This document shows positions 37,614 through 40,189 of a stretch of 50,320 nt of DNA, in pieces. Origin of the DNA: Alphaproteobacteria bacterium (GTDB lineage Bacteria > Pseudomonadota > Alphaproteobacteria > Micropepsales > Micropepsaceae); contig PLJH01000070.1 in assembly GCA_003139615.1 (NCBI GenBank), forward strand, positions 1 through 50,320, given 5' to 3'. A program made the translations under genes and the position numbers. Under the pieces are notes generated by a model. It saw only the letters and a program-made list of their open reading frames with translations, did not search any database and was not told the DNA's origin. The number at the start of each line of letters is the position of its first letter. The first letter of the stretch is position 1.

Positions 37614-38819
37614 ATGAGCAGCCAATCCGATCGGTCCGACGCCACAGACAACGACAACGCTTCGCGAGCGCGAGGCCGATCTGCGAATCGCAAGCCGCCT
37701 CGCAACGGACTGTCGCGCGAGCTTCTGCACGGCCTGACTCCCGATGAATTCAAGGCCGAAGCCCATTCGCTGGCCGCAGCCGAGGCGATGACGCCGCAGG
37801 TTCGCGAGCGGATGAAGGCGCATCTCGTCGAACGCCTGATGACACCGGTGGATCGTCCGAGCTGGGGACCAGACTGGATAAAGCAGAGCGATCGCGATGC
37901 CCCACGGCGCGGCAAGAAGAAATCGCAAGGTCTCATGGGGTTCTTCCGCCCCGAACGTAGCGCGTTCAACGCGTCCGAGAACACCGAGCCGCCGGTGAAG
38001 TCGGCGCTGAGCTCCCAGGATAACGACGAATCTCGCGTCATCGCACGCAATCTCGAAACGAGCCGCCAGGTTGCCCACTATAGCGGACTCTATGTCTTCG
38101 GCATGATGATCGCGATTGCGATTGCGCTGCTGGCGATGTTCGTCGACTACCAGATCATTCGCGGCGACGTCTGGACCCGCGCGCTGTCCAATGAATTCAT
38201 GGTGGTGCCGGTAAGCCTGCAAGCCTCCGTCGTGTTCAAGAGCTTGCAGGTCGTGTTCGCCGTGCTGATCGTGCATTTCATGTTGAAAATCACGGGCGTC
38301 TATGGCCGCAACGCGATGATCACCACGGGTTTTGTGCTAGCTTTGGTAATGATCGGCTGCCTCGGCTATCTTGTCGCCTACAACAACATGGCGGGCGGAA
38401 CGTCTGCGACGCTTGAGCACCACGAAGACGGCAGCGCGCCGGCGCAGGATAATTCCATCAACAAGCTGTTTGCGTCTCTAAATACGCCGAGCGACACGAC
38501 TTCGTCCGATGTTCAGGCTGACGGCACAACGAGCCGCGCCGCGCGTTCGGGGATGGAAAACGCCGATGAGACATCGACTCTGGCGGTTCCGAAAGTGTCG
38601 CAGCGCACGCTTGCCAACGCCGATTCATGGCTGTGGCTGGCCTTCGCCAGCGTGATCTTCTTTATCGTCACAATGGTGGCCGCGCTCTATCTGCAGACCG
38701 GCGAGAACAACGCGCGCAACTTCATGATCTCGCGCGACTACAAGCATCGCAGGCGTATGTTCGCACAGCTGCATCTGCTTGAGCTGGCGGATCGCAAGCA
38801 GAACGGTCAAGCCGCCTGA
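37614..38819 (+). CDS. Four-helix membrane protein of a two-gene module, unknown family
   Basis: 401 residues that I do not recognise. Residues 1-150 are charged and low in hydrophobicity, with HGLTPDEFKAEAHSLAAAEA as a likely helix and a basic patch (PRRGKKK) near 98-103. Membrane helices follow at about 156-180, 198-226, 234-257 and 339-361. A Ser/Thr/Asp-rich loop of about 80 residues lies between helices three and four, and the tail (362-401) is basic. The stop overlaps the next start (TGATG), showing translational coupling to an exported VWA-like protein. Together they suggest a membrane platform plus a partner across the membrane. Confidence 0.85.
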   Translation: MSSQSDRSDATDNDNASRARGRSANRKPPRNGLSRELLHGLTPDEFKAEAHSLAAAEAMTPQVRERMKAHLVERLMTPVDRPSWGPDWIKQSDRDAPRRGKKKSQGLMGFFRPERSAFNASENTEPPVKSALSSQDNDESRVIARNLETSRQVAHYSGLYVFGMMIAIAIALLAMFVDYQIIRGDVWTRALSNEFMVVPVSLQASVVFKSLQVVFAVLIVHFMLKITGVYGRNAMITTGFVLALVMIGCLGYLVAYNNMAGGTSATLEHHEDGSAPAQDNSINKLFASLNTPSDTTSSDVQADGTTSRAARSGMENADETSTLAVPKVSQRTLANADSWLWLAFASVIFFIVTMVAALYLQTGENNARNFMISRDYKHRRRMFAQLHLLELADRKQNGQAA

Positions 38820-39547
38820 TGCAGGTCATGCTCGCAATCGTAACGGCGACCGCCTTGATCGGCGGCGGCGCCATGGCGCTCGACGCCGCGAGCAATGCCA
38901 ATGCACCGCCGGTGATCGAGGCGTCCTATGTGACCGATCAGGCGCAGCTGACGCCCCAACGCGTCGTCATTGGCATCGATCTGTCCAAGAGCAATCCGCT
39001 GATCAACGAACCGGAATTTGCAAGCCGGGTGGGTGCGCGCGTTGCCAATATCGTTCGCGGCCTCGGTTTCGCCTCGGAAGTGCATGTGCGAACCTTCGGT
39101 AACTACGACGCGACCTCGAACAATTTCCACTACGACACCGTCATTTCGGTCCGCAATCGCCCCGAGGACGTCGCCGCTCAGGTGGAAAAACTGGTTGCCG
39201 GAACGCCCGTGTTGATCGAACGCGGCAAATGGGTGGCGCAGAATCGCACGAACATCCTTGCGTTCCTCGACAATGTCTCGCAGAGCATCGGTTGCTCCGG
39301 GATGCCGACGACTGTGATTCTCGCGACGGACGGGATCGAAGATTCGGTCTATGCGCGCCTTGATGATCCGGACGACCATCTGCCCGCCCCCGAGGGCAAG
39401 CCGTTCGCCGGCTGCACCGAGCTGCAAATCCTTGGTGTCGGCGAAGGCGCCAGAAGCCCGATCAAGACGACGCGGCTGCGCGACGAATGGACCCGCTGGG
39501 CCCACGAGGCCGGTTTCGCAAAATTCCAGGGTCTGAACGATTGGTGA
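38819..39547 (+). CDS. Exported von Willebrand factor A-like protein
   Basis: 242 residues. The N-terminus (MQVMLAIVTATALIGGGAMA) is a signal peptide. Residues about 47-235 follow a VWA alpha/beta fold: VVIGIDLSKSNP supplies the metal-site DxSxS (D54, S56, S58), RTNI includes a likely MIDAS threonine, and TTVILATDGIEDS supplies the TDG strand end (T170-G172). C159 and C199 could pair as a disulfide. The start overlaps the stop of the four-helix membrane gene, so the two are made together. VWA domains bind proteins through a metal ion; the ligand is unknown. Confidence 0.82.
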   Translation: MQVMLAIVTATALIGGGAMALDAASNANAPPVIEASYVTDQAQLTPQRVVIGIDLSKSNPLINEPEFASRVGARVANIVRGLGFASEVHVRTFGNYDATSNNFHYDTVISVRNRPEDVAAQVEKLVAGTPVLIERGKWVAQNRTNILAFLDNVSQSIGCSGMPTTVILATDGIEDSVYARLDDPDDHLPAPEGKPFAGCTELQILGVGEGARSPIKTTRLRDEWTRWAHEAGFAKFQGLNDW

Positions 39548-39627
39548 TGTGACGCTGCTGCCGCGCTGTCGGCACAGTCATGATACAAATTCCGTCCAGG
39601 CCGGATTTCGATGCGGAGCGGGATGTC

Positions 39628-40189
39628 ATGTCGAGATTGCTTATTCCGTTCGTCTTTCTCCTTGGGGTAGGCACGACGGCCGCCCACGCTACGGATGCGA
39701 CGAAGTGTTTTCTCTCTGCAGCCGACAAATCGGCGAACGCGCGCCTGAGTTTCGACGAATTCGATCAGAAGGGCGTGACGAACTCGACCTGGCGGCAACT
39801 TGAAGATCGGCTGCCATGCGCTCGCAGTCGAGGCCGCGGAAGACTATCTGGTCGAGGGGCCGGTCCTGACCTTGGCCCACAAGGAAGATGTTTTGTTCCA
39901 CGAAGCACAATCGCTCGCGTTCCTGGGCGATACTGCGCAAGCCGCGCATTTTGTTGCCGCAGCGATACCGCCCGACCGCAGCAACCATGGCGACCTCGAC
40001 TGGACGACGTACTTGATCGGAACATGGGCGTTCCTGGTCCGGGAGAAACCGCTACTCGATGCATCCGCCGGAAAAATGAGTCTCGAACCCGGCGAGGACA
40101 ATGCGATTGATAGCGCAGTGCTGCGGGGATTGGCGAAATGTTTTAATCGCTCCTACCGCATTGCCTACACGGTTTGTCGGCCGAAATGA
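39628..40189 (+). pseudogene. Small exported protein split by a frameshift
   Basis: The first frame starts at the ATG at 39628 with a signal peptide (MSRLLIPFVFLLGVGTTAAH) and continues through ARLSFDEFDQKG to STWRQLED. The second, at +1, continues GCHALAVEAAEDYLVEG and runs to CFNRSYRIAYTVCRPK at 40189. Joined near 39810 as LED-x-GCH, they give one protein of a common but uncharacterised exported family (FDxFD...RALADAGC...LHFHxGQ). The break is one extra base or, better matching the family spacing, two missing. No slippery sequence is visible. Either a true pseudogene or a sequencing error. It follows the VWA gene by 80 bp. Confidence 0.7.

Follow-up and report, generated by a model that had tools for sequence, protein, structure and literature searches.

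Background

The locus described here raises the question of whether two adjacent genes, one for a membrane protein (P1) and one for an exported protein with the features of a von Willebrand A (VWA) domain (P2), make up a single system, and how such a system could work. Both lie in the window, by which we mean the whole stretch of 50,320 nucleotides analysed. A preliminary description, made from the letters of the window, drew attention to the pair; its claims are considered below where the relevant results are given.

The gene pair

The two open reading frames were found at the positions given in the preliminary description, and they share one base as TGATG (Table 1). Each gene is present in a single copy in the genome of the window. 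In comparisons of five homologue pairs per protein, dN/dS was 0.01–0.15 for P1 and 0.04–0.18 for P2; the lowest identity of a homologue to the protein of the window is 21% for P1 and 41% for P2. Since the ratio stays low in all 10 comparisons (0.01–0.18) and homologues reach such low identity, we do not regard the reading frames as a product of chance; the ratios indicate purifying selection on both genes.

Table 1. Features of the P1–P2 locus, in positions of the window
Feature	Position	Strand	Remark
P1 gene	37614..38819	+	401 aa; inner-membrane protein, four predicted helices, N-in/C-in, without recognised family
P1 cytoplasmic N-terminal region, residues 1-156	37614..38081	+	predicted helical pair 43-57, 61-76
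P1 TM1, residues 157-179	38082..38150	+	ends in conserved VDY; D178 identical in 49/49
P1 periplasmic loop 1, residues 180-204	38151..38225	+	motif WTRALANEF; W187 in 49/49
P1 E194 codon	38193..38195	+	proposed ligand of the P2 metal site; role inferred
P1 TM2, residues 205-225	38226..38288	+	K209, Q212, H221 identical in 49/49
P1 TM3, residues 234-257	38313..38384	+	hydrophobicity/charge pattern
P1 periplasmic loop 2, residues 258-336	38385..38621	+	variable except for a short conserved helix motif at 281-289
P1 TM4, residues 337-360	38622..38693	+	hydrophobicity/charge pattern
P1 cytoplasmic C-terminal helix, residues 361-401	38694..38816	+	predicted
P2 gene	38819..39547	+	242 aa; exported VWA protein
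P2 hydrophobic N-terminal export sequence, about residues 1-21	38819..38881	+	extent inferred
P2 DxSxS metal motif (D54, S56, S58)	38978..38992	+	identical in 52/52
P2 T144, second MIDAS loop	39248..39250	+	identical in 52/52
P2 C159, conserved cysteine	39293..39295	+	50/52 in the column; one column on in the other two
P2 D171 of TDG, third MIDAS loop	39329..39331	+	identical in 52/52
P2 C199, conserved cysteine	39413..39415	+	52/52
P2 carboxy-terminal Asp241-Trp242	39539..39544	+	final residues in 52/52, without extension

The statement that P1 belongs to no recognised family holds: against Pfam, NCBIfam, PHROGs and PADLOC neither P1 nor P2 gave anything above chance, and the same holds for PDB sequences. 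Matches of P1 homologues to Tetraspanin (4 of 27, best E 0.0062), PDR_assoc (4 of 27, best E 0.015) and DUF4407 (1 of 27, E 0.087) form an inconsistent set and were treated as chance, as was Dioxygenase_N for P2 (2 of 29 homologues, best E 0.0032, likewise inconsistent). The pair was not found described in the result listings of the literature searched; because these listings lack it and no curated model fits, we hold it to be undescribed. It joins the poorly understood bacterial VWA proteins as a tightly linked membrane–VWA pair without a curated family.

The exported protein P2

The AlphaFold model of P2, made with 21 sequences (pLDDT 76.0, pTM 0.73), consists from residue 48 onward of strands alternating with helices in a VWA-like manner. 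With this model Foldseek gave, at E≤0.001, 59 matches in the PDB. Their TM-scores, taken by query length, are modest (0.32–0.47 among the matches listed, 50 of the 59); the 50 chains listed are presumably all chains with VWA-type domains. In VIA-align the model scored Z 12.3 with an archaeal ArnAB chain (rmsd 3.0 over 155 residues), 11.6 with alpha2delta-1 and 11.3 with an integrin beta chain; these matches differ little and speak for the fold rather than the function. In Pfam and NCBIfam P2 had no match to any sequence model, and the weak matches of its profile to PDB sequences (sporozoite surface protein 2, E 0.02; RGLG1, E 0.34) agree with a VWA fold but are insignificant alone, and unrelated chains score alike. 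The preliminary description had called P2 VWA-like and proposed structure prediction as a check; the structure so obtained is a predicted VWA fold.

We take D54, S56, S58, T144 and D171 to be the MIDAS set of P2. The corresponding elements (DxSxS, the Thr and the Asp of TDG) are named in the excerpt available of PMC5700661. The DxSxS and TDG motifs reported earlier are present, and with T144 the predicted metal site is complete. None of the five residues varies across the 52 homologues compared (complete or near-complete sequences, some closely related to one another). Also invariant in the same 52 are N59, R91, G94, P130, E174, S176, W224 and F233.

P2 has a hydrophobic N-terminal core, and its export is well supported. 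The earlier claim of a signal peptide stands to that extent; a cleaved signal peptide is less well supported. The P2 of the window has no Lys or Arg ahead of the core, and at least one such residue precedes it in 33 of 50 loci, the start calls being approximate. Past residue 40 there are exactly two cysteines in every one of the 52 homologues, which fits an oxidising compartment. C159 and C199 each stand a few residues ahead of a strand, and the two strands are neighbours in the VWA fold; a disulfide between them is plausible for this reason.

The last strand of the P2 model covers residues 235–239 of 242, and no helix follows. In integrin I domains the alpha7 helix comes after the last strand. 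P2 is therefore predicted to end without the C-terminal alpha7 helix of integrin-type I domains, a helix that moves upon activation according to an excerpt of PMC12422189. In its predicted fold and five-residue MIDAS, P2 resembles integrin I and von Willebrand A domains; it differs from them in ending after the last strand, without alpha7, and in its invariant C-terminal Asp-Trp. What is known here is the VWA fold and the MIDAS; a VWA protein without alpha7, with an invariant Asp-Trp end, tied to a family of four-helix membrane proteins, is absent from the curated models searched and from the literature listings.

Bacterial VWA proteins often partner MoxR ATPases (see also PMC5700661 and PMC9976466), and P1–P2 might on these grounds be thought part of a MoxR AAA+/VWA maturation system of the BatA type. 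We disfavour this and consider it hardly credible. BatA/BatB and the MoxR-associated VWA proteins, Borrelia BB0173 included, do present a VWA domain on the periplasmic face of the inner membrane, as P2 is expected to; however, they carry the VWA domain and a transmembrane segment in one chain, with a BatA domain and a nearby MoxR gene, none of which is found in P1–P2. P2 has no BatA match at E≤1, and BatA is absent from the E≤5 matches of 29 homologues. In the genome of the window, to which the neighbourhood check for MoxR applies, AAA_3 (MoxR-type) matches fall on contigs C75, C52, C29 and C121 (those on C29 and C121 below the cut-off) and the BatA match on C52, whereas the pair is on C33.

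BB0173, as an excerpt of PMC5700661 presents it, and the FtsZl1-VWA-OmpA-GTPase systems, as an excerpt of PMC2875224 does, are other bacterial VWA arrangements with a different anatomy. The latter share with the present pair VWA proteins (some exported or membrane-bound), an intact DxSxS and conserved neighbourhoods; inspection of the recurrent neighbours recognised no FtsZ-like, GTPase or kinase gene beside P1–P2.

The membrane protein P1

The four predicted helices, the charged N-terminus and the Ser/Thr/Asp-rich loop ascribed to P1 earlier are all present, the loop counting 79 residues (258–336). Four hydrophobic segments, with the approximate limits given in Table 1, divide the protein, and in the medians of 49 homologues the loops are net negative while the termini and the TM2–TM3 turn are net positive; because of these charges and segments we place the loops outside and the termini inside. 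The AlphaFold model is poor (pLDDT 60.9, pTM 0.43), and the fold search made with it matched no fold.

Conservation is highest in the membrane core and the first loop, not at the cytoplasmic ends. D178, I181, W187, K209, Q212, V213, F215, A216 and H221 are invariant in 49 of 49 homologues, as are G251, F349, V352 and A357; position 194, in the first loop, is E in 47, D in one and Q in one (L073). The cytoplasmic N- and C-terminal regions vary strongly from lineage to lineage. As a separate observation, family f9 has four loci (L142, L150, L152, L153) whose N-terminal region is an open reading frame of its own, of about 90–100 aa, just 5' of P1, which gives a three-gene arrangement.

The invariant polar residues in the helices or at their ends (K209, Q212, H221, D178) would be in keeping with P1 as a small channel or transporter whose stability requires P2, the latter acting in assembly or trafficking and sensing nothing; alpha2delta, according to an excerpt of PMC6231325, promotes the trafficking of its channel. 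We consider this explanation unlikely, as neither the family searches nor the fold search pointed to a transporter or channel, apart from scattered weak matches.

The variable cytoplasmic regions are adaptor-like and could be expected of an envelope landmark or scaffold, in which P2 attaches by its MIDAS to a partner in the periplasm or outer membrane and so holds P1 at particular sites of the inner membrane, where the cytoplasmic ends of P1 recruit proteins. Such a role has been proposed for McaA of magnetotactic Alphaproteobacteria, which has a predicted periplasmic VWA domain, the MIDAS of which is required for localisation and function (PMC9512821, in excerpt); an alphaproteobacterial periplasmic MIDAS that is essential in McaA supports the scaffold too. 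McaA and McaB resemble the present pair in joining an alphaproteobacterial periplasmic VWA domain with MIDAS to a membrane partner. They differ from it in that McaA holds signal peptide, VWA domain, transmembrane segment and cytoplasmic C-terminus in one chain (same excerpt), whereas P2 ends with the VWA domain and has no membrane segment apart from its export sequence, and in that McaB has one predicted transmembrane segment against four in P1. The peak of P1 conservation in the membrane core and first loop would suit an activity in the membrane rather than a scaffold, which we regard as somewhat unlikely.

Most lineages have a conserved loop-2 motif that resembles SxxxALxxLGL; in the clade of the window it reads SIDxLF. 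Two loose patterns between them cover 48 of the 49 loops, whereas in 200 shuffles the matching loops averaged 1.4 and never exceeded 5; the patterns were derived from these same, related loops, so that the control excludes an effect of composition only. It is conceivable, and in our opinion decidedly improbable, that the short helix of this motif supplies in trans the alpha7 missing from P2, the two proteins forming a split VWA domain. If true, a membrane protein would respond directly to metal occupancy, and bacteria would have an integrin-like signalling across the membrane in one step.

Occurrence and linkage

The preliminary description proposed a survey of whether homologues of the two genes occur together, and they do. 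Among 96 genomes of the family of the window (an order-wide search gave no more), 41 have P2 and 39 have P1, and all 39 genomes with P1 also have P2. In 38 of the 39 both matches lie within 1 kb of each other on the same strand of a single contig. The P2 genomes that depart from this are G008, where the pair is split over two contigs, and G039 and G085, which have P2 fragments only.

In a class-wide sample of 385 genomes the P2 profile matches 21, all of them among the 22 that the P1 profile matches; the remaining P1 match is marginal (G271, 52 residues, E 0.008) and was taken as chance. Outside the family of the window this sample holds 19 genomes with P2, in seven families, and all 19 have P1; the pair is adjacent in 18, and in G401 it lies on two contigs. 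In a phylum sample of 398 genomes, which may include any number of Alphaproteobacteria, a clear match was obtained in the genome of the window only, and one match of 41 residues was taken as chance. In the class and phylum searches the best 5–7 candidates per genome were scored, and absence there is not proof. Presence is patchy, even inside the genus of the window. The pair occurs in Rhizomicrobium electricum DSM 21034 (L076), so that its function is directly testable.

In the 50 loci that have both genes, the called P2 start lies from -14 to 136 bases from the P1 stop, which leaves no room for an intervening gene in any of them; the genes share one base (TGATG) in four loci and four bases (ATGA) in three. 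In L151 the pair stands in tandem (P1-P2-P1-P2), and in G386 one contig carries P1-P2-P1 while a second begins with a P2. The comparison of sequences supports the view that the two genes are inherited, duplicated in tandem and relocated as a single unit. Separately, G093 has two very different P2 matches, on C14 and C41 (47% and 63% identity), one of them cut by a contig end; this may be bin contamination.

Proposed mode of action

According to an excerpt of PMC6231325, alpha2delta binds calcium channels at their first outer loop, in which an aspartate (D78 of CaV1.1, D122 of CaV2.2) completes the MIDAS. The present pair is similar in that it has an extracytoplasmic VWA protein with an intact MIDAS, a multi-helix partner and an acidic residue in the first outer loop of that partner. 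Because the complete, periplasmic MIDAS of P2 and the acidic, conserved loop of P1 resemble this case, we tentatively propose a single inner-membrane complex of the two proteins: P2 would attach to a loop of P1 through its metal, and the whole would serve as a sensor or gate of the envelope that depends on this metal; we hold this to be quite possible, though short of probable. The likeness has its bounds: alpha2delta is large, with Cache domains, no sequence relation to it was found, P1 lacks a channel signature, and the interaction of P1 with P2 is a prediction.

In detail, the periplasmic VWA domain of P2 would dock via the metal on the outer loop of P1, most likely at E194; this position is acidic in 48 of 49 homologues, and the docking itself is what we infer. 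Since no C-terminal helix is predicted in P2 to relay changes, as there is in integrin-type domains, whatever changes around the metal would be handed on to P1. The signal would then run through the helices of P1, by way of the invariant D178, K209, Q212 and H221, to its cytoplasmic ends. In favour of this reading we counted the predicted VWA fold, the conserved MIDAS and cysteine pair of P2, the charge-based topology, the linkage of the genes (with the tandem copies and the pair next to pheS-pheT), the acidic residue at 194, the loop-2 motif of P1 and the case of alpha2delta. We counted against it the poor P1 model, which matches no fold, the modest TM-scores of P2, the Q at position 194 in L073, the neighbouring genes, which carry no functional hint, and the patchy presence. 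The earlier suggestion that a P1–P2 complex senses or holds a protein ligand is kept as something that the complex may do. We regard the pair as a minimal system whose metal-dependent VWA domain seems to serve one membrane partner alone.

Gene neighbourhood

Neighbours were compared at 60 loci, some of them truncated at contig ends. The gene gluQRS lies within six genes downstream of the pair in 44 and scpA (methylmalonyl-CoA mutase; PF01642 in the window) within six genes upstream in 29; both are near in 19 and neither in six. Three of these six loci have no recorded genes on one side, and the others are L154, L097 and L098, in the last two of which the whole pair adjoins pheS-pheT. The neighbours are a conserved housekeeping order and give no hint of function.

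As the surrounding order is itself conserved, P1 and P2 might be supposed to act separately, with adjacency as nothing but inherited gene order. This is very improbable in our view: the pair is intact where the neighbours are gone (L097, L098, L154), it is in tandem as a pair in L151, nothing intervenes in 50 of 50 loci, and P1 and P2 co-occur in 39 of 39 and 19 of 19 genomes.

Several other associations were considered and set aside. FlaF/FlbT genes, identified in one example of each, lie some kb upstream in 7 of 41 loci (two of them from one genome) with unrelated genes between, which we do not count as evidence. Flagellin co-occurs with the pair (39/41 vs 36/55), and TadE matches it (38/41 vs 37/55), so that the effect is unspecific; these are raw counts that ignore phylogeny, at E≤0.001 in the 96 family genomes. 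An origin from a mobile element, phage or plasmid was rejected, as the locus is chromosomal with a conserved gene order and has no PHROG or PADLOC match; four query proteins had no match in plasmids, and viral contigs gave no confirmed match for P2, the one protein aligned.

Directly 3' of P2, at 39580-40189 (+), a frame with an apparent export sequence (from about 39628) yields near 39800 to an open reading frame in a different frame, 39800-40189, and the sequence reads as if frameshifted near 39800. The pieces have no Pfam match, and the second has no homologue among the compared loci. In 18 loci of the Rhizomicrobium clade (L061, L064, L067-L079, L096, L099, L100) two additional genes, neither present beside the pair of the window, stand downstream of P2: the first encodes a multi-helix membrane protein of about 185 aa (no Pfam match in the one example checked) and the second a winged-helix regulator of about 100 aa (HTH_34, E 2.3e-22, in one example). 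In family f4 (L139, L140, L155) the pair has genes upstream of it for TPR proteins of some 620 aa that appear to have a membrane segment at the N-terminus, and L139 has three of them consecutively.
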